Shown here: piece after piece, positions 8,959 to 37,420 of the stretch
Layout of the letters: each line of letters begins with the position of its first letter
Numbering within the stretch: the first letter of the stretch is position 1
Source: Gordonibacter urolithinfaciens
GTDB taxonomy: Bacteria > Actinomycetota > Coriobacteriia > Coriobacteriales > Eggerthellaceae
Reading direction: 5' to 3'
DNA length: 64,000 bases
NCBI RefSeq assembly: GCF_900199375.1
Contig: NZ_LT900217.1
Location: 1,922,001 to 1,986,000, forward strand
Translations under genes and position numbers: made by a program
The notes under the pieces: model-generated
The model's database searches: none
The model's input: the letters and a program-made list of their open reading frames with translations, nothing else
Told to the model about the DNA's origin: nothing

Positions 8959-9002
8959 TATCCCTAAAGAGGGTAGGCCGGCGCGGGGGCAACGTGCATT
9001 AT
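8959..9002 (+). promoter_or_regulatory. Box A promoter of the NifU-like gene
   Basis: TATCCCTAAAGAGGGTA (8959-8975) with CCCT/AGGG arms, then 21 nt, then a -10-like CATTAT (8997-9002). The same arrangement recurs twice near 21.4 kb. The box centre is separated by 29 nt from the -10, which fits a class II activator site overlapping the -35 region. The gene starts at 9087. Confidence 0.6.
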
Positions 9003-9086
9003 TGAACCATTCGGTGAAGCTTTCCGCTGCCGTCCGCTCGCGCTTCGTCGTTCGGCGGACGGTCTGACGACGAGAAGGAGCAGGCG

Positions 9087-14249: not shown

Positions 14250-14264
14250 GGTAAGGGGGAGAAA

Positions 14265-16754
14265 ATGACCGACATTACTTCCAGCAAATCCCGCGGCTTC
14301 ACCCGCCGCTCGTTCATCGCGGGCGCCGCGGCCCTCACTGCTGCCGGCGCTTTGTCCGGTTGCTCGGCTACTGCCAAGGGACTCGCCCCGCATGCGGCCG
14401 ACTCGTCGAAAGCCGGCGTTGAGGAGATCTTCTCAGGTGCGTGCCGCTCTCAGTGCATTCAGGGCTGTTATCTGAACGTGCACGTGCGTGACGGTCAGAT
14501 TGTGCGCACTACGGCTGGTCGCATCGAGGAAGAGCCGTTCTACGAACATATCTGCCCGAAGGGTTTAAGCCACCCTGCTCGCGTTTACAGCGCCGGGCGC
14601 CTGCAATACCCTATGCGCCGTGTGGGCGAGCGTGGTGCTGGTGAATTCGAGCGCATTTCCTGGGATGAGGCCATCAGGGAGATCGCTGACAAATGGAAGG
14701 GTTATCGCGAGGAGTTCGGTCCGGAATCCATCGCCTTCTTCATGGGCAGTGGCAACACGGCCGTGCTGGGCGGCGGCACAGCAGACGGGTCGGTCATGCA
14801 GCACCTGCAGACCGTCATGGGCGCTTGCAGCGTGCTTCCCGATCGCGACATCGCGTTCCAGTCGGCCATGTCGAAGATGTTCGGTCCTGGCGGTGCGTTC
14901 GTGTCCCCCAAAGAATGGAGTGGCGCCAATCATATCGTCATCTGGGGCTGCAACCCCGCCGTTTCCTGCAAGCGCATGATGCACCTCTACCTTGATGCGA
15001 AGGAGGCGGGCGCGCAGCTTACCACCATCGATATTCAGTACAACACCAATGTAGCGAAGTCCGATTGGTACGTCCCTGTCCATCCTGCAACCGACGGTGC
15101 GCTTGTGTTCGGCATCTTGAGCGAAGTTATTGCCCAGGGCTGGCAGGACTCCGAATTTTTGCGAGCCCATACCGAGGCTCCTTTCCTGGTGAAAGAAGAC
15201 AACACGTTCTTGCGCATGAGCGATTTGGGTGTTCCGGCTAAGGAGGGCCCGGTGAACGCTATGACGGGCAAACCTACCGTCATTGACCCTGAAGTGGTGT
15301 GGGACGAGGCGACACAGTCCGTCAAGCCCTATTCGGAAGCCGAAATGCCTGCGCTCGAGGGTATCCCCGGAGAGGTAGAAGGTTTTAGAATCCGTCCGGT
15401 GTGGAGCATGATTCTCGAAGCTATTTCCGCTTGGACACCCGAGCGCGCCTCTGAGACCTGTGGCGTGCCCGTTGAAGACATCAAGCGCCTTGCGCGCATG
15501 TATGGCCAGGAGGGCCCCGTGCTCACCGGCATGAACCAGGGCTTGAACCATTACTTCAATGCCATCTACACTTATGATGCCATCTTTGCCCTTATGCTTA
15601 TCACGGGCAACATAGGCAAGCCTTCTGCAGGCGTCATTTCCGGCGGTGGCAGCTTCGGCATCAGCAACTCAAAGGGCTGCATAAACCAGCCTAGCTCCAA
15701 AGGCGAAAAGCCTGCGGGTCCCGGTCGCAATATCAACTGGACTGCGCTGTACGGCATTGTCCATGACCAGGAATTACTGGGCAAACCGTTCCCACTGAAG
15801 AGCCTGTACTGCTCGTGCACCAACATCGTGTCGAACCAGACCGAGCAGAACGAGACCATCAAATCGCTGCAGGAGATAGAGTTTTTGGTTGTCCAGGAAA
15901 TGACCATGAGCGACACGGCCCTGTATGCCGATATCCTGCTGCCAGCTTGCCATTGGTTCGAGTGCGAAGATGTGCGCGTTCGTTCGTACAACATGCCGTA
16001 CCTTTTGTACAACGACAAGGCGATTGAGCCCCTGTACGAAAGCAAGCCCGACTTCGACATTTACAAGATGATCGGAACTGCCATGGGCTTCGGTGATTTC
16101 TTCGACTTCACCGAAAAAGACTATATTTCTCTGTGGCTCGACAGTCCTGTGGCAAAGAAGGAGGGTGTCACATACGAATCGCTTCGCGAGACGAAGATTG
16201 CCCGCAATCACCAACTTAAAGACAATCCGCTTCTAGGTGGTAAATTCTTCTACCAGAACGGCCGTGCCAAGCTTTGGACGGAAAAGGTCGTTCCCGAGTA
16301 TAACCTGGGCCAAGAAGTCGACGAGAGCAAGGAGCACCTGCTTCTGTACTGGGAGCCGGCGCGTGAGGCAAACCTGGAAGCGCCCATTCGCGAGAAGTAT
16401 CCGTACTCTGTGCTTGGCGAGCATATGCGCACGCGCAACCACACGCAGTGGTGGGATGTGGGCTATATGAAGGAATACGAGAGGCAGCCAGTTGCGCGCT
16501 TCAACCCTCATGACGCCAAGGAGCTGGGGATTGCCGAGGGCGATACCGTGCGCCTCTACAATGATAGGGGCTCGGTAACGCTGTTGGCCACCATTAACGC
16601 CGGCCAAGCGCCCAAGACCATCAACTGCCCGCGTAGTTTCCTTACGCGCGAGCACATCGATGGAGATTTCGCAACCATCTCGTTTAACGACTACAACCAG
16701 GTGACGCGCAATCAGTGCTACTTCGACCAGGCCGTTGCCGTCGAGAAGCTGTAG
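14265..16754 (+). CDS. dmsA: DMSO reductase-type molybdopterin oxidoreductase, catalytic subunit (Tat-exported)
   Basis: An 829-residue protein. Twin arginines 14-15 sit in 'FTRRSFIAGAAALTAAG', followed by a possible lipobox Cys33. A 4Fe-4S motif follows at Cys60, Cys64, Cys68 and Cys97 ('ACRSQCIQGC', 'HICPKG'). Bis-MGD contacts include 'HIVIWGCNPAVS', 'VHPATDGALVFGIL' and 'LYCSCTNIVSNQ', with a C-terminal barrel ('AEGDTVRLYNDRGSVTLLA'). The product is expected outside the membrane, reducing an S-oxide or N-oxide with electrons from DmsB and DmsC. Substrate is inferred from family only; Eggerthellaceae carry many diverged DmsA paralogues. An AAGGGGGAGAAA ribosome-binding site precedes ATG 14265. 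Confidence 0.88.
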   Translation: MTDITSSKSRGFTRRSFIAGAAALTAAGALSGCSATAKGLAPHAADSSKAGVEEIFSGACRSQCIQGCYLNVHVRDGQIVRTTAGRIEEEPFYEHICPKGLSHPARVYSAGRLQYPMRRVGERGAGEFERISWDEAIREIADKWKGYREEFGPESIAFFMGSGNTAVLGGGTADGSVMQHLQTVMGACSVLPDRDIAFQSAMSKMFGPGGAFVSPKEWSGANHIVIWGCNPAVSCKRMMHLYLDAKEAGAQLTTIDIQYNTNVAKSDWYVPVHPATDGALVFGILSEVIAQGWQDSEFLRAHTEAPFLVKEDNTFLRMSDLGVPAKEGPVNAMTGKPTVIDPEVVWDEATQSVKPYSEAEMPALEGIPGEVEGFRIRPVWSMILEAISAWTPERASETCGVPVEDIKRLARMYGQEGPVLTGMNQGLNHYFNAIYTYDAIFALMLITGNIGKPSAGVISGGGSFGISNSKGCINQPSSKGEKPAGPGRNINWTALYGIVHDQELLGKPFPLKSLYCSCTNIVSNQTEQNETIKSLQEIEFLVVQEMTMSDTALYADILLPACHWFECEDVRVRSYNMPYLLYNDKAIEPLYESKPDFDIYKMIGTAMGFGDFFDFTEKDYISLWLDSPVAKKEGVTYESLRETKIARNHQLKDNPLLGGKFFYQNGRAKLWTEKVVPEYNLGQEVDESKEHLLLYWEPAREANLEAPIREKYPYSVLGEHMRTRNHTQWWDVGYMKEYERQPVARFNPHDAKELGIAEGDTVRLYNDRGSVTLLATINAGQAPKTINCPRSFLTREHIDGDFATISFNDYNQVTRNQCYFDQAVAVEKL

Positions 16755-16767
16755 GAGGACTGATACT

Positions 16768-17433
16768 ATGACTCGATATGGTATGGCTATCGACCTTGAG
16801 CGCTGCGTTGGCTGCCAAGCATGCGCCACGGCATGTAAGATCGCCAACAATCTGCCCAAGGATATAACCTACAACACGGTGTATACAAGGACGAGCACCA
16901 ACCCGGACGATTTCGGCACGGCAGTCGTGCATGGCGCTACTGCCAACGATAATGCATTCGGCGAGTTTCCAAACTGCATGCTGGAATTCCTGCCAGTGCA
17001 ATGCCAGCACTGCGACAATCCCCCGTGCCTGAGCGTATGCCCGACAGGTGCGACGAAGAAACGTGCTGACGGCATCGTATATGTCGACAACTCGCTGTGT
17101 ATCGGTTGCCGCGCGTGCATGATGGCATGCCCGTACGATCACGTGCGGTCGATGAACGAAGGTGCGCCCGAGTATTATCTCGATGTTGTGGTGGGTGAAG
17201 CTGATGCACCGACGCACGAGGCTGGCACGGTGGAAAAGTGCACGTTCTGCCATAACCTGGTCGATCGTGGCGAAGTGCCGGCGTGCATGCAACTGTGCAT
17301 GGGTCGCGCCCGGTTCTGGGGCGATTTGGACGACCCGGAGTCCGATGTATCGAAAGCCATCGAAGGGCGCAGCTACTACAAGTTGCGCGAATCGGCGGGA
17401 ACCAGCCCCAATGTGTTCTATCTCACAAAGTAG
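16768..17433 (+). CDS. dmsB: DmsB-like four-cluster 4Fe-4S subunit
   Basis: A 221-residue protein. ATG 16768 is preceded by GTAGGAGGA, which also contains the dmsA stop. It has the four-cluster pattern of DmsB/PsrB proteins: 'CVGCQACATACK'-type first motif (read as CVGCQACATAC), 'CQHCDNPPCLSVCPTGA', 'CIGCRACMMACPYDH' and 'CTFCHNLVDRGEVPACMQLC'. The conserved 'ARFWGDLDDPESDVSKAI' tail is also present. It moves electrons from the membrane anchor to DmsA and is expected to be carried across the membrane with the Tat-signalled catalytic subunit, since it has no signal of its own. Confidence 0.9.
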   Translation: MTRYGMAIDLERCVGCQACATACKIANNLPKDITYNTVYTRTSTNPDDFGTAVVHGATANDNAFGEFPNCMLEFLPVQCQHCDNPPCLSVCPTGATKKRADGIVYVDNSLCIGCRACMMACPYDHVRSMNEGAPEYYLDVVVGEADAPTHEAGTVEKCTFCHNLVDRGEVPACMQLCMGRARFWGDLDDPESDVSKAIEGRSYYKLRESAGTSPNVFYLTK

Positions 17434-17439
17434 CCGTTT

Positions 17440-17471
17440 GAGCCGTCGCGTCCTGCTGTGCGCGACGGCTC
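17440..17471 (+). other. Intergenic hairpin between dmsB and the chaperone gene
   Basis: Perfect 11-bp inverted repeat GAGCCGTCGCG / CGCGACGGCTC with a 10-nt loop, no T-run. It probably protects the upstream mRNA or attenuates expression of the chaperone and membrane genes relative to dmsCAB. Confidence 0.5.
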
Positions 17472-17493
17472 CCCAATAGGTGGAGTGGTTCAT

Positions 17494-18219
17494 ATGGGTG
17501 AAGGCATCGAATGGAAGCTTCATCGGGCTGTAGGTTTATCCGACCTCGCATCACTTCTGGCGACTGGCTTCTCCTTTCCGGACGGTAAGCTCGCCCAAGC
17601 GCTTTCCGACGGGGCATTTCTCGATGATTGGCGTGCGAGCATCGTCGATGCGTGCGGCAGGGAATCGGCGGGCGATGCGCGCTTGTCAAGTCGCTGTGCT
17701 GTGGCTTTCGCTGAAACCGACGAAGGGCTGTTGCGACGCGAGTACAGCCGCCTTTTCCTGGCACCTGGTGTCGACGTGCCGATTTGGCCCTACGAGAGTC
17801 CTTTTTTACATCGTATGGTGGGCGCCGAAGGAGCTCCGTCGCTGTTCCGAACTCGCATTTCGATGGACGTCGAGCGCTGCATGGCAGCAGCGGGCGTGGT
17901 CACGGTCGATCTGTGCCGAGAACCTGTCGACAGCGTATTCCACGAATTCGAGTTTCTGGCGCATCTACACGCTTGTATCGGCGAGGCGCTTCGAGTTGGA
18001 GACGGTGACGCCGAGAGGGAATGGCGCGACCGTCTGTGCTCGTTTGCCAGCGATCATGCTTTGAAGTGGCTTCCTGCTTTCATGCAGGAAGTGGCGGACT
18101 TCAGCCGCTTGGGAGAATATCGTGCATTTGCCCGTTTGGGTGTGCGCTATTTGGGTGAACTGGCGACCGAAACGGGAGCCGATATTGGAATTGTGAGCTC
18201 TGCGTCCTGCAAGGGGTGA
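17494..18219 (+). CDS. TorD/DmsD-family redox enzyme maturation chaperone
   Basis: A 241-residue protein; ATG 17494 is chosen over GTG 17458, which lies inside the hairpin, and AGGTGGAG precedes it. It is all-helical with the TorD/DmsD pattern: 'LLRREYSRLFLAPGVDVPIWPYESPFLHR' (the YxxLF...PxxPxES segment), 'SVFHEFEFLAHLHACIGEALR', and 'FASDHALKWLPAFMQEVADF' (like W.P.F). These chaperones bind the Tat signal and help insert the molybdenum cofactor, here presumably for the dmsA product upstream. Confidence 0.85.
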   Translation: MGEGIEWKLHRAVGLSDLASLLATGFSFPDGKLAQALSDGAFLDDWRASIVDACGRESAGDARLSSRCAVAFAETDEGLLRREYSRLFLAPGVDVPIWPYESPFLHRMVGAEGAPSLFRTRISMDVERCMAAAGVVTVDLCREPVDSVFHEFEFLAHLHACIGEALRVGDGDAEREWRDRLCSFASDHALKWLPAFMQEVADFSRLGEYRAFARLGVRYLGELATETGADIGIVSSASCKG

Positions 18220-18223
18220 TCGC

Positions 18224-18946
18224 ATGACGTTTCTGATCGTGTTCGCATGTACGGCAGCGGCGGCGTTTCTGCTGAAACCGGCCATCAAAAAGGTGCCGGT
18301 GGCGTGGTACGTGTCGGCAGGCATCCTGATGGTGCTCTACGTTGCGGGGCTGCAGGGCTGGCTGCCGTTGCCGGCTCCGGTTCGCAGCGTGCTGTTCCTG
18401 CTGCTGCAAAAGGGCACCCTTGCGGTTGCGCTGTTCGCGGTGGTGATGTTCATCGGCGCGCTCCCGCGCGATTCGGGGCCGCGCAAGCATCTCATGCCCA
18501 TCCGTGCCGAGCTTTCCGTCATCGCATGCATCCTGGTATGCGGGCATATCGTCGCGTACTGCCTGTCGTACGTGCCGCGCATGATGGGGGCGGGTGGCGT
18601 TAACCCCTTCGTCGCCGTCGGGTTGGCGGTGGCAGCGGCTATCACCGTGCTGCTAGTCGTGCTGGGCGTCACGTCGTTCAATTCCGTGAAGGCGCGTATG
18701 AGCAAGCAGATATGGGTCAAGGTGCAGAAGTGGGCTTACGTGTTCTTCGGCTTGACGTACGTGCACGTGCTGGCCATGCTCCTGCCGAGCGCTCTCGGTG
18801 GTGGCGCTGCAGCCGTGCAGAGCGTGGCGGCTTACACGGTCGTGTTCGGCGCGTACGCCGTGTTGCGCGTGGCTCGCGCCAAGCGGGAATCAGGGGGCTG
18901 TATCAAAGACCCCAGATCGCAAGCCCGACAGGTGACCGCCTCGTAG
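18224..18946 (+). CDS. Ferric-reductase-like transmembrane protein
   Basis: A 240-residue protein with about six helices. 'CGHIVAYCLSYVPRMM' and 'FGLTYVHVLAMLLP' place histidines inside helices in the manner of haem-binding ferric-reductase/MsrQ-like cytochromes. It starts 4 nt after the chaperone stop, so it is in the dms-like operon. It may supply electrons or anchor a haem, but a role specific to this operon is inference. The last 25 residues are polar ('RESGGCIKDPRSQARQ'). Confidence 0.7.
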   Translation: MTFLIVFACTAAAAFLLKPAIKKVPVAWYVSAGILMVLYVAGLQGWLPLPAPVRSVLFLLLQKGTLAVALFAVVMFIGALPRDSGPRKHLMPIRAELSVIACILVCGHIVAYCLSYVPRMMGAGGVNPFVAVGLAVAAAITVLLVVLGVTSFNSVKARMSKQIWVKVQKWAYVFFGLTYVHVLAMLLPSALGGGAAAVQSVAAYTVVFGAYAVLRVARAKRESGGCIKDPRSQARQVTAS

Positions 18947-19130: not shown

Positions 19131-21269
19131 TTACGGCAGCAGGTTGAGCGACTGCAGCTCTTCCTTCACGTCGGCCATGCCGTACGCGTCGAGGCAGGCG
19201 GCCGTGGGGCAGCCCAGCTTCTCGTCCCAGCCGAACTTGCCGTACACCATGCCGAGCGCCGTCTGGAAGTCGTCGCGGTCCATCTTGTCGGTGCCTTCCG
19301 TGAACGGCTTCTTGTCCGGGTCCTTGTCGAAGGCCCAGGCGGTGATCACGTCGTGGTCGGCGCGCAGGTCGTTGTTGCCGAGCGAGCCGTCGGCCTTCGT
19401 CATGCCGCGCACCGTGTTCGCGCGCTGCAGCGTCATGATCTTGGCGCCGGCCTGGTACAGGTCGTCGGTGGTCAGGTCCTCGCCGGTCACAGCCTTGAAG
19501 AACTTGGCCTCCAGGTCGAGGTCGCCGCGGTAGTTGCGAGCTTTCGTGGGGCTCATGGTCATGGGCCACACCCAGTTGCACAGCGTGAGCGAGTCGTGCA
19601 GCACGTCGGTCACGAGGCTCCACCAGGCGAAGTTCGCCTTGTGGTCGTTCATGGGCGTGTAGTTCTTGTCCTGGTCGATGGCGTCGGCGCCGCCCCAGAC
19701 CTCCTCGGCGATCTGCTGCTTCAGCTCGAAGGGCAGGCCGCAGCCCTGGAAGTTCACGGCGGAGTGGATCATGTCGTCGCGGTTGAACATCATGTTGTAC
19801 ACGGCGCCCACCTGGCCGAAGCACTCGATGGCGTGGTGCACGGGCCAGCCGCGGTAGTTGATGAGCGTGGACTTCGCGTTGTCGAACCACGCCTGCTCGT
19901 TCCAACGCTCGCACCACACGTACGGGCCGTGGGCCAGATACGAGATCTCGGAGTCGTTCTGCGCGATCTTCGTGAGGATCTCGATCATGACCGTGGGGTC
20001 GCGGCGATCGGCGTCGAACTTGCCCCAGTCGATGGAGGCGTACTCGTCGGCCGGCAGCACGCGCTTGAACACGCCGTTGGCGTGGCAGTAGGCGATGTCG
20101 CGGTAGAGCTGGGCGTAGTTGCACCACAGGCCCAGGTTGTCCATCGTGTTGGACGTGGTGGTGTCCCACAGGATGGAAAGGTCGCCGTCGTCCTTCAGGC
20201 CCATCTTCAGGAAGGGCTCCATGTACACGCTCACGGGGAAGTTCGCCGCGCAGGTGTTGCCCGCGGTCTCGTAGCCCGTGGTCTCCTTCGTGCCCTCCAC
20301 GCGCAGGTCGGAGTAGCAGTGGATGGGGCAGCTGTGGCAGCCGTTCATCTTGATGGTGTACTTCGAGGCGGCCTCGCCCAGGTCCTTCGTGGACTTCATG
20401 CAGCGGTAGCCCACGGTGTTGATCTCGCCGGGCTTCGGCTCGCCCGTCTCGATGGGCTCGCCCTCGGCGGCCTCCCAGAACAGGCCCTTGCGCGCCGTCC
20501 AGCGGGAGCCCTTGTCGTAGTACTCGGCCCACTCCTGCTGGGTGGAAGGCACCACGTGGTTGTTGTTCGAGCCGATGATCTCGCGCAGCATGTAGTCGGA
20601 CAGGTCCGCCACCGTCTGCGGGTCCTTCACGTTCACGGAGCCGTCGCCTTCCACCACGAGGGCCTTGAGCATCTTCGAGCCCATGACCGCGCCCGTGCCG
20701 GCGCCGGCGGAGTGGTTGCGCGAGTTGATGATGCAGGAGTACGGCGTGAGGTTCTCGCCCGAGGGGCCGATGGCGGCCACGCAGGCCTGCACGCTCTCCT
20801 TGCGGCAGAGCGCCTCGGTGGCGGCGCGGGTGCCCAGGCCCCACACGCCGGAGGCGTCCTTGATGGTCACCTGGTCGTTCTTGATGTTCAGGTACACGGG
20901 CTTGCTGGAGGCGCCCTCCACCACGATGGCGTCGTAGCCGGCCAGCTTGATCTTCGCGCCCAGCATGCCGCCGCAGTGGGCATCGACGATGAGGTGGTCC
21001 TTCGAGAACGTGGACAGCGAGCAGATGGTGGTGCGGCCGGCCAGGGGCACGCCGGAGGCCGTGAGGGGGCCTACGGCAAAGACGATCTTGTTCTCAGGGG
21101 AGAAGGGATCGGTGCCGGCGGGAACCTCGTCGAACATGATCTTGTTCGCCAGGCCCATGCCTCCGATGTATTCTTTGTAGGGGTCGGTCGGTTGCGTCGT
21201 GACCGAGCCGGTGCTCAGATTGACGCGGAGGATCTTACCGGCCCATCCGTACGATGTTTCGTCAGCCAT
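19131..21269 (-). CDS. Aldehyde:ferredoxin oxidoreductase family, tungsten enzyme
   Basis: A 712-residue protein; ATG 21269 is preceded by TTTGGAGATGCAAC, and the frame continues upstream without function. It starts 'YGWAGKILRVNLSTGSVT', the canonical AOR N-terminus, with 'YIGGMGLANKIMFDEV' and 'ENKIVFAVGPLTASGVPLAGR'. The 4Fe-4S cysteines are 311, 314 and 318 ('GCHSCPIHCYSD'), with a distal Cys in 'GCPTAACLDAYG' close to the C-terminus. There is no signal peptide, so it is cytoplasmic. It would interconvert carboxylic acids and aldehydes (or a related substrate) using low-potential electrons. A Tat-type ferredoxin gene is divergent from it, and both promoters carry box A. Confidence 0.9.
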   Translation of the reverse strand: MADETSYGWAGKILRVNLSTGSVTTQPTDPYKEYIGGMGLANKIMFDEVPAGTDPFSPENKIVFAVGPLTASGVPLAGRTTICSLSTFSKDHLIVDAHCGGMLGAKIKLAGYDAIVVEGASSKPVYLNIKNDQVTIKDASGVWGLGTRAATEALCRKESVQACVAAIGPSGENLTPYSCIINSRNHSAGAGTGAVMGSKMLKALVVEGDGSVNVKDPQTVADLSDYMLREIIGSNNNHVVPSTQQEWAEYYDKGSRWTARKGLFWEAAEGEPIETGEPKPGEINTVGYRCMKSTKDLGEAASKYTIKMNGCHSCPIHCYSDLRVEGTKETTGYETAGNTCAANFPVSVYMEPFLKMGLKDDGDLSILWDTTTSNTMDNLGLWCNYAQLYRDIAYCHANGVFKRVLPADEYASIDWGKFDADRRDPTVMIEILTKIAQNDSEISYLAHGPYVWCERWNEQAWFDNAKSTLINYRGWPVHHAIECFGQVGAVYNMMFNRDDMIHSAVNFQGCGLPFELKQQIAEEVWGGADAIDQDKNYTPMNDHKANFAWWSLVTDVLHDSLTLCNWVWPMTMSPTKARNYRGDLDLEAKFFKAVTGEDLTTDDLYQAGAKIMTLQRANTVRGMTKADGSLGNNDLRADHDVITAWAFDKDPDKKPFTEGTDKMDRDDFQTALGMVYGKFGWDEKLGCPTAACLDAYGMADVKEELQSLNLLP

Positions 21270-21365
21270 GTTGCATCTCCAAATCTTGGATAGACTACTG
21301 AGGTTCGTGTTGTGTGGGAACCGTCGGCCGCGATGCGAGCGCTGACAACAATCGTCGTGCCGCCA

Positions 21366-21409
21366 GTATGCCGACCCGCGCGCCCAGGGTATACCCTCTT
21401 TGGGGGTAA
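21366..21409 (-). promoter_or_regulatory. Box A promoter of the aldehyde oxidoreductase gene
   Basis: On the minus strand, TACCCCCAAAGAGGGTA (21409-21393; perfect TACCC/GGGTA arms) is followed by 21 nt and a -10-like CATACT (21371-21366). It matches the box at 8959-8975 at 15 of 17 positions with identical spacing. The gene starts at 21269. Confidence 0.65.
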
Positions 21410-21439
21410 TTCCGCAAAATCGCCGTTCAGGAAGCAGAA

Positions 21440-21483
21440 TTCCCTCAAAGAGGGGAGGGCGTCCATCCAGCGCACGGCATACT
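21440..21483 (+). promoter_or_regulatory. Box A promoter of the Tat-ferredoxin operon
   Basis: TTCCCTCAAAGAGGGGA (21440-21456), 21 nt, CATACT (21478-21483). Together with the box at 21393-21409 it accounts for most of the 389-bp gap between the divergent genes. The transcript would have a leader of about 170 nt before 21659. Confidence 0.6.
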
Positions 21484-21658
21484 TCCAAGTGTTGTGTGGT
21501 ACCGCGAATCGGAAGCGAGCCGAGCGCAGCCACCCCGAGGGCGCACGCCCGCCGCGCGAAGGCGACGGCGGGGAGACGAGCGAGCACGAGCGCGCCGGCG
21601 GGGGAGGCATACGGAAACGACACTCACGGAACTTAAGTGAGGGAGGGAGCACCAGGCT

Positions 21659-22420
21659 ATGTCAGATTCCAATCTGCACCAGAACACCTCCGAGGACCAG
21701 GGCGTCCCGAGCGGCGCGCCTGCGACGAACGGAACCGCGCCCGCGCCCGAGAACGTGGCAGGCGAGGGGGATCGTAAAAGCAAAACCTTCACGCGGCGCA
21801 GCGTGCTGGCCATGGCGGGCTGCGGCGTTGCCGGCCTCGTGGTCGGCGGCGTGCTGGCCTCGTGGGGCGTGACGTCGAAGTCCATCGCCTCCGGGCGCAT
21901 CGAGATCCGCACGACGCCCACGAAGATGATCGTGACCGACCGCGCCCGCTGCTCGGGCTGCCAGCGCTGCGAGATGGCGTGCACGCTGAAGAACGACGGC
22001 CGCGTCTGCCAGCACATCGCGCGCGTTCGCGTGTGGCCCAACTACAACTTCGGCACGAACGTGGGCAGCACCGACGGTGCCTACGGCAACTGCGAGTTCA
22101 CCGTGGAGCACTGCAAGCAGTGCGAGGATCCCGCGTGCATGAACTACTGCCCCGTGCATGCCATTTACGCCGACGAGAAGTCCGGTGCGCGCAAGGTGGA
22201 CGCCGACCGCTGCATCGGCTGCGGCATGTGCAGCCAGGCGTGCCCGTGGAACATGCCGGTAGTGGATTCCGAGACGGGCGTGTCCACGAAGTGCATCTCG
22301 TGCGGCCGCTGCGCCGAGCAGTGCCCGAACGGCGCCATCAAGTTCATCGACTGGGAGGATATCGCGCAGAAGGTCATCGACCAGGGCGTCGTGAGGACGA
22401 CGACCCTCGTGCAGGCGTGA
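21659..22420 (+). CDS. Tat-exported 4Fe-4S ferredoxin subunit
   Basis: A 253-residue protein with an unusually long n-region of 45 residues before twin arginines 46-47 ('FTRRSVLAMAGCGVAGL'). Four Fe-S motifs follow: Cys98/101/104/108 ('CSGCQRCEMAC'), 'CKQCEDPACMNYCPVHA', 'CIGCGMCSQACPWN' and 'CISCGRCAEQCPNGA'. It is predicted to lie outside the membrane or be anchored by the uncleaved signal. It is divergent from the cytoplasmic aldehyde oxidoreductase and upstream of a chaperone and a thiosulfate-reductase-like set. The partner is therefore ambiguous: it could be the molybdenum enzyme at 23225 or the tungsten enzyme. Confidence 0.85.
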   Translation: MSDSNLHQNTSEDQGVPSGAPATNGTAPAPENVAGEGDRKSKTFTRRSVLAMAGCGVAGLVVGGVLASWGVTSKSIASGRIEIRTTPTKMIVTDRARCSGCQRCEMACTLKNDGRVCQHIARVRVWPNYNFGTNVGSTDGAYGNCEFTVEHCKQCEDPACMNYCPVHAIYADEKSGARKVDADRCIGCGMCSQACPWNMPVVDSETGVSTKCISCGRCAEQCPNGAIKFIDWEDIAQKVIDQGVVRTTTLVQA

Positions 22421-22493: not shown

Positions 22494-23174
22494 ATGATGG
22501 AAGACGAGGCCGTGTTCTCGGTGCTTGCCCAGTGCTTTGGCCCCGTGGACGAGGGCTCTTGGAGCCAGCTGGTGGGTAGCTCGCTGTGGTCGGACTTCCT
22601 CGACGGTGCCCGCCGCGTCATGCAGGCAGACGAGCTGGGCGTGCAGGCAGCCCCCCTCGCACGGGCGCGCAAGCGCTGCCCGCTGCAGGAGTTCCTGTCG
22701 TCGGGCGAGGTGAACGCGCTGTTCGCGCCGCCGACATACGACGAGAAGCAGGCCTTCGCCGCCCGCCACTTCACGGGAGGGCTCCCCGAGTCCGCCGTGC
22801 CGGTGGAGTCGCTCTACCGCACGTGGTCTGCAGGGGCCGCGCCCGCTCCGTTCTCGCAGCAACAGGGGCTGTACCTGGGAGATTCGGCGCACTACCTGCG
22901 CGAGCTGGTCGAGCGGCTGGGCATGGAGGTGCCGCCGGCGTTCTCGGCGTGCCCCGACCACCTGGCGCTCGAGCTCGATCTCGTGGCCGTGATGCTGCGG
23001 TCCGGCATGCGGGAGGAGGCCCGGCAGTTCCTCGCGGAGCGCTTCGCCTGGCTCACCGCGTACCGCATGCGGCTCTTGGCCCTGGAGGACGAGGCCCGCT
23101 TCTACATCGGGCTCGTCGACGTGATCCTGGCCATTCGCGCGCAGCAGACGACCGCCGATGCGGTGGTCGCATGA
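22494..23174 (+). CDS. TorD-like redox enzyme chaperone
   Basis: A 226-residue all-helical protein with features of the TorD superfamily: 'VPVESLYRTWSAG', 'GLYLGDSAHYLRELVERLGMEVPPAFSACPDHLALELDLVAVML' (the P.....DHL..EL segment is strongly typical), and 'REEARQFLAERFAWLTAYRMRL'. ATG 22494 follows AAAGGAGGATGAGCG. It is expected to bind the Tat signal and cofactor site of the molybdenum subunit encoded 50 nt downstream. Confidence 0.83.
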   Translation: MMEDEAVFSVLAQCFGPVDEGSWSQLVGSSLWSDFLDGARRVMQADELGVQAAPLARARKRCPLQEFLSSGEVNALFAPPTYDEKQAFAARHFTGGLPESAVPVESLYRTWSAGAAPAPFSQQQGLYLGDSAHYLRELVERLGMEVPPAFSACPDHLALELDLVAVMLRSGMREEARQFLAERFAWLTAYRMRLLALEDEARFYIGLVDVILAIRAQQTTADAVVA

Positions 23175-23224: not shown

Positions 23225-25426
23225 ATGTCAGAAAACGCTATAACCAGGCGAAGCTTCCTGGCTGGCAGCGCTGGGGCGGTTGCGCTCACGGCGGCAGCCG
23301 GCTATATGGGCTTCGACGCTTGGGAGCAGGCGCATGCTGATGACGCATCGGGAGGCGGCGAGACCAAGACCGTCCACACGCTGTGCAACGCCTGCTCGAG
23401 CAAATGCGGCTACACGGCCTACGTGGTCAACGGCCGCTTGACGAAGCTCATCGGCGATGCCGACCACCCCTACTCCAAGGGCAAGCTCTGCGCCCGCGGC
23501 TACGGCTACTCGCAGATCGCCTACTCGGAGGATCGCCTCACCGACCCGCTGAAGAAGAACGAGCAGGGCAAGTTCGAGGCCATCTCGTGGGACCAGGCGT
23601 ACAGCGAGATTGCCGAGAAGGTGCGCGCCATTATCGACGCCGACGGCCCGCAGGCACTGGCCATGGTGCAGGACCCGCGCCCCAGCGGCAAGTACTACAC
23701 GAAGCGCTTCATGAACGCGCTGGGGTCGGCGAACGTGTACACGCACGGCGCCGCCTGCAACCTGTCCAAGGAAAGCGGCATGACTCAGGCCATCGGCACG
23801 GGCAGCTACTCGTCCGACGTGGCGAACTCCAAGATGACCATGTTCATCGGCCGCAGCTACGCTGACGCCATCCGCCCCAGCTCCGTGGTCGCGCTGCAGA
23901 AGGCGCACGAGAAGGGCGCGCACATAGTGCTGGTGGACCCGCGCTGCAACAACAGCCGCGTGTTCGCCGACGAATGGGTGCCCATCAACCCGGGCACCGA
24001 CCTCGCGCTCGTGCTGGCCATGAGCAACGTGCTGGTGACGCGCGGCCGCTACGACAAGGAGTTCGTGGCCGCGAACACCGTCGGCTTCGACGAGTGGGCA
24101 AAGGAGCTCGCGGAGTACCCGCCCGAATGGGCCGAGGGCGTCACGGGCATCCCGGCCGACACCATCGCGCGCCTGGCCATGGAGTTCGCCGAGGCGGCCC
24201 CCGCGGCCTCCATCGAGCCCAGCTGGCGCGGTGCGTTCGGCTGCTCGTACGAGAACTCGGGCGAGACGGCGCGCGCCATCTGCCTGTTCAACACGCTCTT
24301 GGGTTGCTGGAACCAGAAGGGCGGCGCCCTGTTCACGCCCAGCGTGTCGGCCGGCAAGCTGGCCGACGAGCGCTTCGCCGACCCGAAGAAGCCCGAGGGC
24401 AAGCAGGTGGGCGCGGCCGAGTACCCGCTCGCGCTGTCGAGCATGGGCACGAACCTCGCCGCCGCCCAGGCCGCCGAGGACGGTACCGTGAAGGGCATGT
24501 TCTTCTACAACTCGAACATGGCCGCCGGCTACTCGAACACGGCGAAGCTCGCCGAGCTCTTGGGCAAGCTGGACCTCATGGTGGTCGTGGACGTGCAGAT
24601 GTCCGAGACGGCGATGCTCGCCGACTACGTGCTGCCCGACACGAGCTACCTGGAGCGCCTGGAGCTGCCCGAGTTCATCGGCGGCAAGGTGCCGGCCGTG
24701 GCGCTGCGCGACCAGGTGATCGACGTGGTGCACCCGAACACGAAGCCGGTCGACCGGATATTCTCCGAGCTGGCCGAGGCGTGCGGCGTGGGCGAGTACT
24801 TCCGCTTCGGCGTGGACGAGCTGGCCGACGCGCAGCTGCAGACGGTGGGCCTTTCGCTCGATGCGCTCAAGCAGACGGGCACGGCGCACTTCCCCGAGAA
24901 GGAATTCGCCTACGGCACGGCGCCGAAGTTCAAGACGCCTACCGAGAAGGTGCAGTTCACAAGCGAAGCGTGCGAGAAGGCGGGGTTGTCGGCCGCACCC
25001 GTGTGGGTGGAGCCGGCCGTCATGCCCATGGGCGACGAGCTGCGCCTCATCGGCGGCAAGCAGGCCATCCACAGCCACACGCAGACCGCGAACATCGAAG
25101 ACCTCATGCAGATCACGAAGGATTACGACCTGACCCGCGTCTGGATAAACGCCGACGTGGCCAAGCGCCTGGGCATCGAGGACGGCGACGAGGTGGAGGT
25201 GTCGAACCCCCAGCACACGGGCCGCGTCCGCGCGAAGGTGACGCAGCGCATGAACCCCACGGCGCTGTACATGCCCAGCCACTACGGCTGCTCGTCGCCC
25301 GACCAGCACACCGCCTACGAGGTGGGCCTGCGCCAGATGGACTTCGTGCCGTTCCATTTGGAGCCGGCTTACGGGGGCGCGTGCACGCAGGAGGCGGTCG
25401 TGACCGTTAAGAAGGTAGGTGCGTAA
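23225..25426 (+). CDS. Thiosulfate/polysulfide reductase-like molybdopterin subunit (Tat-exported)
   Basis: A 733-residue protein starting at ATG 23225 (GAGAGGAAACAGCT upstream). Twin arginines are at 8-9 ('ITRRSFLAGSAGAVALTAAAG'). The 4Fe-4S motif is Cys54, Cys57, Cys61 and Cys89. A Cys178 in 'YTHGAACNLSKESG' is at the position of the molybdenum ligand; a Cys ligand is typical of the PhsA/PsrA and NapA branches, not of DmsA (Ser). 'LVDPRCNNSRVFADEWVPINPGTDLALVLAM' and the C-terminal barrel are intact. With the following PsrB-like and NrfD genes it forms a complete membrane-bound reductase. Thiosulfate, polysulfide or a related substrate is inferred. Confidence 0.88.
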   Translation: MSENAITRRSFLAGSAGAVALTAAAGYMGFDAWEQAHADDASGGGETKTVHTLCNACSSKCGYTAYVVNGRLTKLIGDADHPYSKGKLCARGYGYSQIAYSEDRLTDPLKKNEQGKFEAISWDQAYSEIAEKVRAIIDADGPQALAMVQDPRPSGKYYTKRFMNALGSANVYTHGAACNLSKESGMTQAIGTGSYSSDVANSKMTMFIGRSYADAIRPSSVVALQKAHEKGAHIVLVDPRCNNSRVFADEWVPINPGTDLALVLAMSNVLVTRGRYDKEFVAANTVGFDEWAKELAEYPPEWAEGVTGIPADTIARLAMEFAEAAPAASIEPSWRGAFGCSYENSGETARAICLFNTLLGCWNQKGGALFTPSVSAGKLADERFADPKKPEGKQVGAAEYPLALSSMGTNLAAAQAAEDGTVKGMFFYNSNMAAGYSNTAKLAELLGKLDLMVVVDVQMSETAMLADYVLPDTSYLERLELPEFIGGKVPAVALRDQVIDVVHPNTKPVDRIFSELAEACGVGEYFRFGVDELADAQLQTVGLSLDALKQTGTAHFPEKEFAYGTAPKFKTPTEKVQFTSEACEKAGLSAAPVWVEPAVMPMGDELRLIGGKQAIHSHTQTANIEDLMQITKDYDLTRVWINADVAKRLGIEDGDEVEVSNPQHTGRVRAKVTQRMNPTALYMPSHYGCSSPDQHTAYEVGLRQMDFVPFHLEPAYGGACTQEAVVTVKKVGA

Positions 25427-25968
25427 TGGCCCGTTACGGAATGCTCATCAACACCAAGAAATGCATCGGCTGCTACGCGTGCCGCGTGGCCTGCCAGCGC
25501 CAGAACGACCTGCTGCCCACGCAGGACTTCATCCGCTACGAGGAGCACGAGACGGGCACGTATCCCAACGTGGCCATCGAGACGGTGCCGCTGCAGTGCA
25601 TGCACTGCGAGGACGCCCCCTGCGTGGCCGTGTGCCCCACGGGCGCGGCCTTCATCGGTGCCGATGGCATCGTGGGAGTGGACGAGGGGCGCTGCATCGG
25701 CTGCAAGTACTGCATGGCCGCCTGCCCCTACCAGGTTCGCGTGCACAACGAGAAGACGGGCACGGTTGACAAGTGCCGCTTCTGCACGGTGTCGGCCGAG
25801 ACGAGCGGCACGAAGATGTGCTCGTGCGTGGAGGCGTGCCTGACGAACGCCCGCATCTTCGGCGACCTGGACGATCCCGAAAGCGATATCTCGAAGGAGA
25901 TCGCCGCGACGAACGCCCAGCCCATAGCGGGCGACCTGACCAAATCCAAAGTATTCTACGTGAGGTGA
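25426..25968 (+). CDS. PsrB/PhsB-like 4Fe-4S subunit
   Basis: A 180-residue protein whose ATG shares one base with the stop of the previous gene (TAATG). Four cluster motifs are visible: 'CIGCYACRVACQ', 'CMHCEDAPCVAVCPTGA', 'CIGCKYCMAACPYQ' and 'CRFCTVSAETSGTKMCSCVEAC', followed by 'ARIFGDLDDPESDISKEI'. The extra Cys in the last motif ('MCSCVEAC') is slightly unusual. It links the NrfD anchor to the catalytic subunit. Confidence 0.9.
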   Translation: MARYGMLINTKKCIGCYACRVACQRQNDLLPTQDFIRYEEHETGTYPNVAIETVPLQCMHCEDAPCVAVCPTGAAFIGADGIVGVDEGRCIGCKYCMAACPYQVRVHNEKTGTVDKCRFCTVSAETSGTKMCSCVEACLTNARIFGDLDDPESDISKEIAATNAQPIAGDLTKSKVFYVR

Positions 25969-25974
25969 TGAGCG

Positions 25975-26868
25975 ATGTCTTTTGAACCTATCTGGGGCGC
26001 CATCATCGCATGGTACCTGTTCCTCGCCGGTCTGGGCGGTGGCGCGTTCATCACCTCCGCCTTCCTGGGTTGGCGCCATCCCGAGGCCGTGTCGATGCGC
26101 AAGGTGGGGCACCTCATCGCCCCCATCGCGGTCATCATCGGCCTGGTGCTGCTCATGTTCGATGCCGAGGGAGGCCTGCACAACCCGCTGCGCTTCGCGC
26201 TGCTGCTGACGAACTTCGGCTCCGTGATGACGTGGGGCGTCGTGTTCCTGGGCGGCTTCACCGTGGTGGCCCTGGTCGTGGTGGTGCTGGACTTCCTTAA
26301 GAAGTCGGTGCCGGTGTGGCTGGACATCGTGGGCGTGGTGTTCGCGGTGTGCGTGGCCGTGTACACCGGCGCGCTCTTGGGCGTGTGCAAGACGTTCCCG
26401 CTGTGGAACAACGCGCTGCTGCCCATCCTGTTTTTGGTGTCGGCCGTCTCGGCCGGTGCTGCCAGCGTGCTGCTGGTGGCCGTTATCCGCCATGCGGACG
26501 AGTTCAACCGCGTGGGCGTGCTGAAGAAGTTCCACTTCTGCCTGCCCATCATCGAGCTGGTGCTGGTGGCCTCGCTCATGTTCATTACCAGCTTCAACTC
26601 CGTTGCGGGTTGGAACTCGGTCATGAGCTTGCTGGTGGGCCAGTACGCGCCGCTGTTCTGGATCGGCCTGGTGCTTATCGGCCTCGTGCTGCCCACGGCG
26701 CTGGAGACATGGCTTTTGTTCTTCAGCCCGAAGGAGTTCGAGGAGAGCCGCAAGGCCCACTGGATCAGCTTCGGCTCCGATGCCGGCGTGCTGGTGGGCG
26801 GCTTCCTGCTGCGCTTCCTGGTGGTCATGGCGGCCCTGCCGGTGACGATCACGGTGCCCATGCTGTAG
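25975..26868 (+). CDS. NrfD/PsrC-like membrane anchor
   Basis: A 297-residue protein with about eight hydrophobic helices. It begins 'WGAIIAWYLFLAGLGGGAFITSAFLGW', the NrfD family start, with 'LMFDAEGGLHNPLRFALLLTNFGSVMTWGVVF' and 'GVCKTFPLWNNALLPILFLVSAVSAGAASVLL'. It would oxidise menaquinol and pass electrons to the Fe-S subunit. Last gene of the operon; the terminator lies 31 nt downstream. Confidence 0.9.
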   Translation: MSFEPIWGAIIAWYLFLAGLGGGAFITSAFLGWRHPEAVSMRKVGHLIAPIAVIIGLVLLMFDAEGGLHNPLRFALLLTNFGSVMTWGVVFLGGFTVVALVVVVLDFLKKSVPVWLDIVGVVFAVCVAVYTGALLGVCKTFPLWNNALLPILFLVSAVSAGAASVLLVAVIRHADEFNRVGVLKKFHFCLPIIELVLVASLMFITSFNSVAGWNSVMSLLVGQYAPLFWIGLVLIGLVLPTALETWLLFFSPKEFEESRKAHWISFGSDAGVLVGGFLLRFLVVMAALPVTITVPML

Positions 26869-27061: not shown

Positions 27062-27757
27062 ATGAGAAACATTAGCCGAAAAGAGAAGAAGTTCCTCGTC
27101 GACCTGACGAGTGCGAAGAAGCTCGAAGGGCTGCTCTCGCAAGTGATGCCCGGCGATCCGCACAATGGCTCACGCGGCTACCCGGTACGGTCGCTCTACT
27201 TCGACACGCTGCACGACCGCGACTTCGCAGAGAAGCTGTTCGGCACCGATCCGCGCCGCAAGGTGCGGCTGCGCGTGTACGACCCAGCGGCGGACTTCGC
27301 GCTGCTGGAGCTCAAGCAGAAGCAGGGAGAGAACCAGCGGAAGCGCTCGCTGCCCTTGACGCAGGCCGAGGCGCGCCGCCTCATCGACGGCGATTTCGAC
27401 GTGCTGCTCGGTCGCGAGGAGCCCTTCGCCGCGGAGATGCACGCGCTCATGAGCATCAACGGCTATCGGCCGAAGGCCGTCGTCGAGTACGACCGCACGG
27501 CCTTCATCGCGAAGGAGAACAAGACGCGCGTGACGTTCGACCGGTCGATCCGCGCGACCGAGCTGAACTACGACCTGTTCGACCCGAAGCTGCCCCTGTA
27601 TCCGGTGTTCGACCCGTTCAACGTGGTGCTGGAAGTGAAGTTCGACGGTTTTCTGCTCAGCTACGTCCGGTCGGTGCTGAATATGGCGGACAAGAGCGAG
27701 CTGTCGGTGAGCAAGTACTGCCTGGCGCGCGGCGCGCGCATGGCGTACCAGTTCTAA
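27062..27757 (+). CDS. VTC-domain protein (polyphosphate polymerase-like)
   Basis: A 231-residue protein covering a single VTC catalytic fold. The basic and acidic residues expected to line the tunnel are visible: 'RNISRKEKKFLVD', 'VRSLYFDTLHDRDF', 'RRKVRLRVYD', 'LLELKQKQGENQRKRS', 'AVVEYDRTAFIAK', 'NVVLEVKFDGF', 'LSVSKYCLARG'. In yeast Vtc4 this domain makes polyphosphate from ATP; bacterial stand-alone VTC proteins are poorly understood. It is the first gene of a six-gene operon whose next genes encode DUF4956 and CotH proteins, a recurring neighbour set in bacteria. Confidence 0.85.
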   Translation: MRNISRKEKKFLVDLTSAKKLEGLLSQVMPGDPHNGSRGYPVRSLYFDTLHDRDFAEKLFGTDPRRKVRLRVYDPAADFALLELKQKQGENQRKRSLPLTQAEARRLIDGDFDVLLGREEPFAAEMHALMSINGYRPKAVVEYDRTAFIAKENKTRVTFDRSIRATELNYDLFDPKLPLYPVFDPFNVVLEVKFDGFLLSYVRSVLNMADKSELSVSKYCLARGARMAYQF

Positions 27758-27769
27758 AGAGGAGAGAGC

Positions 27770-28453
27770 GTGAAAGAGCAACTGTACCAGCTGTTCCAGG
27801 GCACCACGGGCGCGCCCACGGTGGAGGACCTCCTGCTGCGCGTGGGCGTGTCGGTGGTCATCGGCCTGGCCATCTTCGTGTCGTACTGGATCTCGCATGC
27901 GGGCACCATCTACTCGCAGAAGTTCAACATCAACCTCATCACGCTCACCATCCTCACGGCCACGGTGATGACGGTCATCGGCAACAACATCGCGCTGTCG
28001 CTCGGCATGGTGGGCGCGCTGTCCATCGTGCGCTTCCGCACGGCCATCAAGGACCCGCGCGACACCACCTACATCTTCTGGGCCATCATCTGCGGCATCT
28101 GCTGCGGTGTGGGCATGTTCCTGGCGGCGGCCATCGGCAGCGTGGCCGTGTTCGTGGTGCTGCTCATCCTGGGGCGCGTGCGCAACGACGTGCGGACGCT
28201 TTTGATAGTGCGCGCCGCGCGCACGCAGGAGCTGCCCATCGAGGGCAAGGTGTACGAGTATTTCGGCGGCCGCGCCGTGCAGCGCGTGAAGAACACCACG
28301 GAAACCGACGTCGAGTTCATGTTCGAGCTGTCCCGCGGCATGCTCGACCGCGCGCAGAAGAAGGCCGAGCGCCCTATCACCGACGAGCTGTACGCCCTCG
28401 GTGGCATCGATTACGTGAACATCGTGGCGCAAAACGACGAGATAGGCAGCTAG
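27770..28453 (+). CDS. DUF4956 membrane protein
   Basis: A 227-residue protein from GTG 27770 (AGAGGAGAGAGC upstream). Three or four helices lie in residues 20-140 ('LLRVGVSVVIGLAIFVSYWIS', 'LITLTILTATVMTVIGNNIALSLGMVGALSIVRFRTAIKDPRD', 'FWAIICGICCGVGMFLAAAIGSVAVFVVLLIL'). The 'GALSIVRFRTAIKDPRD' motif is the DUF4956 hallmark. A soluble C-terminal domain of about 85 residues follows. DUF4956 genes commonly neighbour VTC genes; function is unknown, possibly a channel or membrane partner of the VTC protein. Confidence 0.85.
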   Translation: MKEQLYQLFQGTTGAPTVEDLLLRVGVSVVIGLAIFVSYWISHAGTIYSQKFNINLITLTILTATVMTVIGNNIALSLGMVGALSIVRFRTAIKDPRDTTYIFWAIICGICCGVGMFLAAAIGSVAVFVVLLILGRVRNDVRTLLIVRAARTQELPIEGKVYEYFGGRAVQRVKNTTETDVEFMFELSRGMLDRAQKKAERPITDELYALGGIDYVNIVAQNDEIGS

Positions 28454-28463
28454 CGCGTTGGCC

Positions 28464-30026
28464 ATGGAGGCATTGCGAGGCAGGAAATACCAGCTCATAG
28501 CCGTGGCGGCCATCGCGGCCGTCGTGGCTGCGGGCGTCGTGGGCACGCTGGCGGACGCGAACAAGCTGCTGCCGGAGCGGTACCATCAGCATGAAAAAGC
28601 CCAGCAGCTGGCCGACCTGCCAGAGGCCGACCGCGCGGCGGCGTCCGGCACCAACACCGATGCGGCCACCTTCGCCTCGCACCTGCCGGTCGTGAGCATC
28701 GACACCGGCGGGCAGGAGATACCGGGCGAGCTCGTCCGCGACGAGAACGGCAAGACCATCGAAGGCGGAGACGGCCGGGCCGTCGTCACTGCTGCGCCTT
28801 CCGGCGAGCCGTCCATCACCGCCAGCCTGGTCGCCTTCGACGCCGAGAGCCAGGACGCGGTGCGCGCGAACCGGCTCTCCGACGAGCCTGAGATTGAAAG
28901 CTCGTGCCTGCTGCGCATCCGCGGCAACTCATCGCGCGCTTTCGACAAGAAGAACTACCAGATCACGTTCGTGAAAAGCGACGGAACCGACAACGACCAA
29001 GAGTTCTTGGGCATGGCGAAGAGCGAGACGTGGACGCTGCACGGTCCCTCGCTCGACAAGACCCTCATGCGAAACTACCTGGCGTACGGCATCGCTGGCG
29101 AGTTCATGAACGACTACGTGCCCGACGTGCGCTATTGCGAGCTGTTCATCGACGGCGAGTACCAGGGACTCTATCTGGCAACCGAGACGGTGAAGGTGGA
29201 GGACGGCCGGCTCGACCTCAACCCCGCCGATCCGAAAAGCCCCACGACCAGCTACGTGCTCGGCATAGATCTGACGGGCTCCGGTCCGCTGACCATCTCG
29301 GATTTCCTCCGCTACACGCTGCGCCTGAGCAAGTACATGAACATCGAGTATCCGAACGCGACCACGCTCACCGATGAGCAGAAGGCGTGGATCGAGCAGG
29401 ATGTGAGCTCGTTCGAGAAGGCTTTGTTCTCGTACGACTACGACACCCGCGACTACGGATACGTCAACTACATCGACGTCGACAGCTTCGTTGATTCTTT
29501 CGTGTGGAACGAGTTCGTCATCAACGACGATTTCGCCGCTTACTCGACGTATCTGTACAAGGACGTTCGGGGCAAGCTCACGCTGGGGCCTCCTTGGGAC
29601 TTCAACAACGTGTTCGACAATTATCGACTGGCCACGCCTACTGACAAGTTCTACCTGGTCGATCGTGCGTGGTACTTCATGCTATTCAAAGACGAGGCGT
29701 TCACCGAGCGCGTGATCAGCCGCTATAGGGAGCTTCGGGCGGGCGCGTTGAGCGAGGAGCACCTCAACGCCTACATCGACGAGACGACGGAGTACCTGGG
29801 CCCGGTCGTGGAGCGCAACTTCAAGGTGTGGGGCTATCTGCTCGACGCTGAAAATGTTTCCCATGCGCAGAAGGTTGAGCCTGACGAGCGGAACCCGCGC
29901 TCGTTCGACGAGGCCATCGATCAGTTGAAGTCGTTCGTGACGGAGCGCGGTGCGTGGCTCGACGGTTCCATCGAGCATCTGCGCCAATACTCTCATGAGT
30001 CGGCCGTCAAGAAGTTCAACCATTAG
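28464..30026 (+). CDS. CotH kinase family protein, secreted or membrane-anchored
   Basis: About 520 residues; ATG 28464 is used, with a TTG two codons earlier as an alternative. There is one N-terminal hydrophobic helix ('LIAVAAIAAVVAAGVVG'), so the protein is extracytoplasmic. The CotH pattern follows: 'CLLRIRGNSSRAFDKKNYQITF', 'LGMAKSETWTLHGPSLDKTLMRNYLAYGIA', 'CELFIDGEYQGLYLATETVKVEDGRLDL', then 'LTLGPPWDFNNVFDNY', which matches the conserved metal-binding 'WDwD' region with an N instead of the second D. CotH of Bacillus is an atypical spore-coat kinase. Here the neighbours suggest phosphorylation or modification of a surface polymer or protein. Confidence 0.85.
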   Translation: MEALRGRKYQLIAVAAIAAVVAAGVVGTLADANKLLPERYHQHEKAQQLADLPEADRAAASGTNTDAATFASHLPVVSIDTGGQEIPGELVRDENGKTIEGGDGRAVVTAAPSGEPSITASLVAFDAESQDAVRANRLSDEPEIESSCLLRIRGNSSRAFDKKNYQITFVKSDGTDNDQEFLGMAKSETWTLHGPSLDKTLMRNYLAYGIAGEFMNDYVPDVRYCELFIDGEYQGLYLATETVKVEDGRLDLNPADPKSPTTSYVLGIDLTGSGPLTISDFLRYTLRLSKYMNIEYPNATTLTDEQKAWIEQDVSSFEKALFSYDYDTRDYGYVNYIDVDSFVDSFVWNEFVINDDFAAYSTYLYKDVRGKLTLGPPWDFNNVFDNYRLATPTDKFYLVDRAWYFMLFKDEAFTERVISRYRELRAGALSEEHLNAYIDETTEYLGPVVERNFKVWGYLLDAENVSHAQKVEPDERNPRSFDEAIDQLKSFVTERGAWLDGSIEHLRQYSHESAVKKFNH

Positions 30027-37413: not shown

Positions 37414-37420
37414 AGGGGTC

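Follow-up and report, generated by a model that had tools for sequence, protein, structure and literature searches.

The 64,000-nucleotide stretch of Gordonibacter urolithinfaciens DNA analysed here (the window) contains, between divergent genes for an AOR-family oxidoreductase and a Tat-signal ferredoxin, two copies of a short sequence that face away from each other, which raises the question of what this sequence does, which genes it serves and which protein recognizes it. Both copies are 17-bp near-palindromes in which AAA is flanked by two 7-bp arms (consensus TACCCYC-AAA-GAGGGKA). The candidate operator or box on the AOR side (TACCCCCAAAGAGGGTA, 21392-21408, minus strand) is a 7-3-7 palindrome that matches the consensus without a mismatch, and the one on the Tat-ferredoxin side (TTCCCTCAAAGAGGGGA, 21440-21456, plus strand) departs from it at one position. 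On both strands, the sequence reads directly as a box followed after exactly 21 nt (N21) by the hexamer CATACT, at 21365-21370 on the minus strand and at 21478-21483 on the plus strand, in agreement with a preliminary description of the region; that description gave the plus-strand box its correct coordinates, but placed the minus-strand box at 21409-21393 instead of 21408-21392. If the hexamers are -10 elements, as the genus-weighted conservation at N21 presented below suggests, transcription would start near 21358 for AOR and near 21490 for Tat-ferredoxin. The predicted mRNA leader of the Tat-ferredoxin gene (window positions 21490-21658, 169 nt) is very G+C-rich, and the segment 21490-21661 folds somewhat better than shuffled sequences (z of -2.78, with 2 of 200 shuffles as good).

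The two divergent genes appear to encode parts of one enzyme. The product of the minus-strand gene (19131-21269) is an AOR-family large subunit, YdhV/WorL-like by its score of 1081.6 bits (cut-off 868) with NCBIfam PRK09849, which we take to be a YdhV-type model. The plus-strand gene (21659-22420) encodes a WorS-like Tat-signal 4Fe-4S protein (NCBIfam PRK09898, 225.4 bits, cut-off 213) whose translation contains FTRRSVLAMAG, the FTRRSVL motif of a Tat-bearing WorS having been read by eye rather than by a predictor. It is followed on the plus strand by genes for a TorD/NarJ-like chaperone (22494-23174; Pfam Nitrate_red_del 5.2e-11; TorD model 2e-08, below its cut-off), a second molybdopterin oxidoreductase that is PhsA-like and carries the Tat motif TRRSFLAG (23225-25426), a 4Fe-4S subunit that is NrfC/PhsB-like by profile matches (25426-25968) and an NrfD-like membrane subunit (25975-26868; Pfam NrfD 8.3e-40). 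The open frame of the second oxidoreductase extends from 22586, and its real start is probably 23225; because its match to the PhsA model (2.2e-123) reaches 412.9 bits, below the cut-off of 694, a PhsA-like substrate is not implied. Next to this cluster, genes for a VTC domain protein, a DUF4956 protein and a CotH kinase stand in a row (window 27062-30026), and farther along is a minus-strand gene for an alkylsulfatase-type protein with Lactamase_B and alkyl-sulfatase dimerisation domains (window 35344-37563).

Class V WOR enzymes of Coriobacteria comprise an AOR-family L subunit and a Tat-bearing S subunit together with a membrane subunit and one further pyranopterin subunit; Gordonibacter and Eggerthella are named as carriers, and a heterologously made member preferentially takes up tungsten, molybdenum being a possible metal of others (PMC13328260). 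That paper gives the class no physiological role. All four kinds of subunit are found in the window cluster, with the PhsA-like and NrfD-like genes downstream as the pyranopterin and membrane subunits of the Coriobacteria arrangement, and the likeness to Class V WOR (clade 41, relatives of E. coli YdhV) is by gene content rather than by tree. By this match, AOR and Tat-ferredoxin probably belong to a single exported tungsten/molybdenum oxidoreductase of Class V, as its L and S subunits (PMC13328260). The translated N terminus of AOR has no visible Tat motif, and we infer that AOR is carried out of the cell together with its Tat-bearing partner. Of the preliminary proposal that a cytoplasmic AOR and an exported ferredoxin share one regulon, the regulon is supported by the shared promoter architecture, but the cytoplasmic location of AOR is probably wrong.

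The proposed regulon includes a third promoter, absent from the preliminary description. On the plus strand, the element at 8959-9002 consists of the box TATCCCTAAAGAGGGTA (8959-8975; two mismatches to the consensus), N21 and CATTAT (8997-9002, a putative -10 with a predicted start near 9009), and it lies upstream of an open reading frame (9087-9704, plus strand) for a NifU_N-like protein with an Fe-S scaffold domain (Pfam NifU_N 3.8e-14; under the NCBIfam NifU/IscU cut-offs), which may help Fe-S assembly. A search of the window for CCNNAAAGAGGG-N23-CATNNT with at most two mismatches gave three matches, all of them exact; 100 shuffles that preserve dinucleotides averaged 0.20, and none of them contained three or more. 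When up to three mismatches are allowed, the 44-position pattern occurs in the genome of 3,294,868 bases at these three sites only, all of which belong to the cluster of a LuxR-type gene described below, and the reversed control has no match. When only the box core is sought and one mismatch is allowed, it is found three times in the window (0.73 expected; 6 of 100 shuffles reach three) and 35 times in the genome versus 39 times in the reversed control. It is the combination of box, exact spacing and hexamer that goes far beyond chance, and the core alone is not rare. The preliminary argument that a box and a spacing shared by two genes are hard to explain by chance agrees with the window shuffles and with the genome control, the latter belonging to a genome-wide search that had been proposed at the time.

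Conservation in related genomes had likewise been proposed as a check, and the sites are conserved. Among the genome of the window and 40 relatives (41 genomes), the pattern is present in eight, including all five of the genus, and the control in none of the 41; the 16 genomes from elsewhere in the order, outside the family, gave no match. Across 138 Eggerthellaceae genomes, the core pattern has 61 exact matches in 34 genomes, and its control has none in 138. Upstream position with respect to AOR, Tat-ferredoxin or NifU-like genes accounts for 59 of the 61 sites, the nearest recognised downstream gene being NifU-like at 21, Tat-ferredoxin at 21, AOR at 17 and an o9762-like ORF at one, with none at one that lies at a contig end. 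Nine of the 21 NifU-like sites stand 1.0-1.4 kb from the NifU-like gene, probably with another gene in between, and the predicted AOR leader is 79-95 nt long at all 17 AOR sites. Stretches around the AOR and LuxR genes were mapped with the proteins of the window, which gave 80 loci after joining, the window included; an AOR match exists in 71 genomes, and the AOR stretch was covered for 69 of these, G047 and G091 being left out. All 61 exact sites fall inside the 80 mapped loci, most of which keep the order LuxR / NifU-like / AOR / Tat-ferredoxin / TorD / PhsA-like / FeS / NrfD, the cluster being incomplete at contig ends or in the genomes named below. In the window, another molybdopterin oxidoreductase operon (13491-18946: the 13491 ORF, DMSO-reductase-like, FeS, NarJ-like and ferric-reductase-like genes) separates the NifU-like gene from AOR; G002 alone has a close copy of it (82-97% identity) within the 80 mapped loci, distant relatives of its parts are located elsewhere in L042 and L054, and the window pattern search found no box before it.

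Diverged boxes were scored by allowing up to two mismatches to TA[CT]CC[CT][CG]AAAGAGGG[TG]A. This consensus was read from the exact sites, and for that reason conservation within the box is partly by construction, but conservation of the hexamer is not. For three loci, two mismatches were also reached by the best of 50 shuffles of a single gap. When all boxes within two mismatches were collected from the 80 loci with the downstream sequence ignored, 149 boxes were obtained from 62 loci and 23 genera. With genera equally weighted, the strongest downstream conservation is that of the A (0.80) and the T (0.79) of the hexamer at N21, the commonest letters of which are CATAAT, with TATGAT or GATACT in some genera; a purine two bases 3' of the box is conserved more weakly by the same weighting. 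The form.A...T is present at N21 of 119 of the 149 boxes and at no other offset from 8 to 28 in more than 22. The mapped stretches contain 124 exact CCNNAAAGAGGG cores; CATNNT is exactly matched at the predicted position after 61 of them and not after 63, many of the latter bearing a variant hexamer there. The hexamer at N21 appears to behave as expected of a -10. Taking its last T as position -7, the box would therefore span -50 to -34 with its centre at about -42, close to the -41.5 of class II activator sites that overlap the -35 region, and the predicted geometry would be like that of a class II activator, as in the preliminary description. No sigma-70-type pair of -35 and -10 elements was found in 21250-21700.

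The candidate regulator is encoded on the minus strand at 7164-8792 (open frame to 8885), as the divergent neighbour of the third box and a conserved neighbour of the cluster. Its 573 residues end in a GerE/LuxR DNA-binding domain (residues 514-567; Pfam GerE 1.6e-12), which is a C-terminal helix-turn-helix of the LuxR/GerE type, and contain 12 hydrophobic segments, counted as hydropathy peaks of 19 residues that start between residues 87 and 442 on a simple hydropathy scale with a self-chosen threshold, in keeping with 10-12 transmembrane (TM) segments; the gene is close to the AOR / PhsA-like cluster and hence beside redox enzymes. DadR, HcdR and CadR of Eggerthella lenta are 12-TM LuxR regulators that activate molybdoenzyme genes upon exposure to substrates (PMC9734109). 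The protein of the window resembles them in its 12 N-terminal hydrophobic segments, its C-terminal GerE domain and the position of its gene beside a molybdopterin redox enzyme, and differs from them in its target enzyme and in the conserved, fixed-spacing putative operator, whereas the text of PMC9734109 that was examined describes no operator. Open-access PMC, from which most subscription journals are missing, yielded neither a printed operator for the 12-TM LuxR family nor a description of this box in the titles and the openings of abstracts among the matches listed. As whole words, promoter, transcription and LuxR have a single mention in PMC13328260, which is of the promoter of an expression plasmid. 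The window has two more GerE-domain matches, at 45612 and 53202 on the plus strand, in long open frames of 887 and 894 aa.

The presence of the box follows the presence of this LuxR. Exact sites exist in 34 of 65 genomes that have both LuxR and AOR, and in none of six with AOR only, six with LuxR only and 61 with neither. With up to two mismatches, the box is present in 58 of 63 AOR-bearing genomes with LuxR and in none of six without it (Fisher p of 3.9e-6, ignoring shared ancestry), and the box together with.A...T at N21 is present in 56 of 63 and none of six (p of 1.4e-5, ancestry again ignored); here, genomes with LuxR are the AOR-bearing genomes other than the six that have no match at 1e-20, some of the LuxR genes are on another contig, and the six represent four genera and include two genomes that are 85-86% complete. 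The mapped stretches of LuxR-bearing G092, G008, G149, G072 and G045, some of which are fragmented, contain no box within two mismatches. Genus g48 contains a genome that has box and LuxR (G081) and another that lacks the two (G082). Among AOR upstream regions, 56 of 68 from LuxR-bearing genomes have a box with at most two mismatches and 12 have only sites with at least three, compared to none of six with a box in LuxR-less genomes; the 68 include four regions without a mapped ferredoxin (L061, the second genes of L083 and L109, and L128), the L128 region is a faulty 7.7 kb and that of G005 is very short. All five genomes of the genus, that of the window included, keep both genes and boxes, the loss of which in close relatives would have spoken against the preliminary proposal; farther away, those 12 of 68 regions have lost the box at the two-mismatch limit. 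The link to this particular LuxR, made in the preliminary description, gains from its divergence from the third box and from the missing box in six of six AOR-bearing genomes without it.

The recognition helix of the LuxR orthologs is mostly TAHAHIKRIY or nearly so, and 20 further LuxR domains compared from the window genome all lack HIKRIY. In L069, L108, L127 and L129, the LuxR is only 27-32% identical, IKR is replaced by IRH or IRN and the boxes have three to five mismatches; in L069, L108 and L129, a -10-like hexamer can still be read at N21 of the best site by eye, without statistics. Changes in the box are not always matched by changes in the helix, because G090, G149 and G150 keep IKR and yet have AOR sites with three to four mismatches only. 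A box is present in G090, located by its position between the LuxR and NifU-like genes. Five genomes (G096, G021, G087, G102, G109; loci L083, L109, L069, L108, L129) have a second AOR gene, which in L069, L108 and L129 is adjoined by the diverged LuxR, as if enzyme and regulator had been duplicated together.

The reading preferred here, with a probability of roughly 0.78, is that each box serves as the operator of an activator-dependent promoter and that the three promoters are co-regulated, the likeliest activator being the 12-TM LuxR encoded at 7164-8792, which is assumed to be an activator by analogy with its relatives. In the proposed mechanism, binding of a substrate to LuxR at the membrane would be the trigger, a pair of GerE domains would occupy both 7-bp arms of the palindrome, and the bound protein, whose centre would lie some 42 bp before the start so that it overlaps the -35 region, would recruit RNA polymerase to a weak -10 (CATACT or CATTAT) that has no recognisable -35. 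The AOR large subunit, the predicted Tat-ferredoxin / TorD / PhsA-like / FeS / NrfD operon and the predicted NifU-like operon would be switched on jointly, such that the parts of one exported complex of Class V WOR type, perhaps with a helper for Fe-S supply, would be made at once.

A different GerE protein, such as a soluble NarL-type response regulator for nitrate or redox signals, might bind the box while the 12-TM LuxR acts elsewhere, which is unlikely but has some points in its favour. E. coli NarL, also of GerE type, binds a similar engineered palindrome, TACCCCTAAAGGGGTA, and the 7-2-7 NarL site of napF is located at -40 to -49 (PMC4549865). The palindrome described here resembles such a site in its TACCC arms and inverted heptamers as well as in the type of domain that would bind it; the title of a reference in PMC4549865 places the E. 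coli ydhYVWXUT operon, which includes the AOR relative YdhV, under FNR, NarL and NarP; and regulators of this kind are common, a relative of one response regulator of the window genome being present in 27 of 31 chosen genomes. On the other hand, the spacer of the box is 3 bp rather than the 2 bp of a 7-2-7 site, and NarL is a phosphorylated response regulator (PMC4549865), whereas the candidate here is a membrane one-component protein; the box may function as a NarL site does and yet be distinct from it. The survey of that one response regulator in 31 genomes, in which matches outside the window genome are 31-42% identical, found relatives in three of the six genomes that lack both LuxR and box (G049, G099, G100) and no relative in box-bearing G022; the other three LuxR-less genomes likewise lack one. 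Whereas a global regulon would be scattered, the sites of the window genome are all in the cluster of LuxR, the presence of which the box tracks. The survey of this one response regulator speaks against control by a NarL-type protein and may not hold for other regulators.

The palindrome might instead be the operator of a repressor, with a protein bound at about -50 to -34 that blocks the polymerase until a ligand releases it. By sequence, a palindrome over the -35 region fits either role, but repression is quite improbable, given that the AOR and ferredoxin promoters have a weak -10 and no pair of -35 and -10 elements, as expected of activated promoters, that the three 12-TM LuxR proteins tested in PMC9734109 are activators, and that the exact spacing exceeds what blocking would need. 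It is hardly credible that the palindrome is a product of chance or a structural element such as an RNA hairpin or terminator, although palindromes can form hairpins and one weak terminator-like match lies over the plus-strand box, when none of 100 shuffles reaches three sites and 23 genera keep a hexamer at a fixed distance that a hairpin would not need.

Activation by the 12-TM LuxR remains the preferred reading. An orphan exported redox enzyme has a promoter set that is real, conserved and well delimited, and as judged from genome comparison this set is most likely switched on by the neighbouring 12-TM LuxR. The shared promoter set is a practical handle on the purpose of this enzyme, and the box is a sequence-level lead on the place where a 12-TM LuxR binds. 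The promoter with its putative operator is short enough to be fused to the lacZ reporter of E. lenta (PMC9734109), with which a screen for inducers would point to the substrate.

A broader possibility, doubtful at present, is that the box is the first operator to be defined for the 12-TM LuxR family, whose membrane regulators would use 7-3-7 palindromes at about -42 and whose paralogs would keep the spacing and change the arms with the recognition helix. If such a family code were true, the regulons of dozens of LuxR proteins per genome, and hence the inducers of orphan gut redox enzymes, would be predictable from sequence. Inverted repeats of 7-d-7 form with a -10-like hexamer downstream were sought in 42 stretches near other LuxR-type genes, 39 from the window genome (two of them within the window) and three from G085 (one overlapping with the orthologous cluster). 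With CATNNT as the hexamer, the geometry of spacer 3 and N21 occurs eight times at six of seven pairs, compared to a mean of 5.5 per cell, and never at seven of seven; with TANNNT, it occurs three times at seven of seven, the joint highest of 264 cells (mean 0.38), and seven times at six of seven (mean 4.4). There is no clear enrichment of the 7-3-7/N21 layout near other LuxR genes in the 42 stretches, and as a general rule of the LuxR family it was set aside. Perfect 7-bp inverted repeats in 45 windows upstream of LuxR genes, for some of which (those with 0-4 predicted TM) frame picking was faulty, exceed shuffles at most spacers, among which a spacer of 3 (12 repeats, compared to 4.0 in 100-base-window shuffles) is not special. 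Of two further palindromes that came into view, CGCATCATTATAATGCG was rejected as a LuxR operator, being found in one of 138 genomes, where it overlaps TATAAT, probably by chance. The other, TCATCAATTATTGATGA, has the 7-3-7 size and is present in three of 138 genomes (G085, G087, G007); in G085 (L179, 9764-9809) it is flanked by a LuxR-type gene and, on the other side, by a divergent ORF from 9864, with TAAGCT at N21 facing the LuxR-type gene, and it may be the operator of another LuxR.
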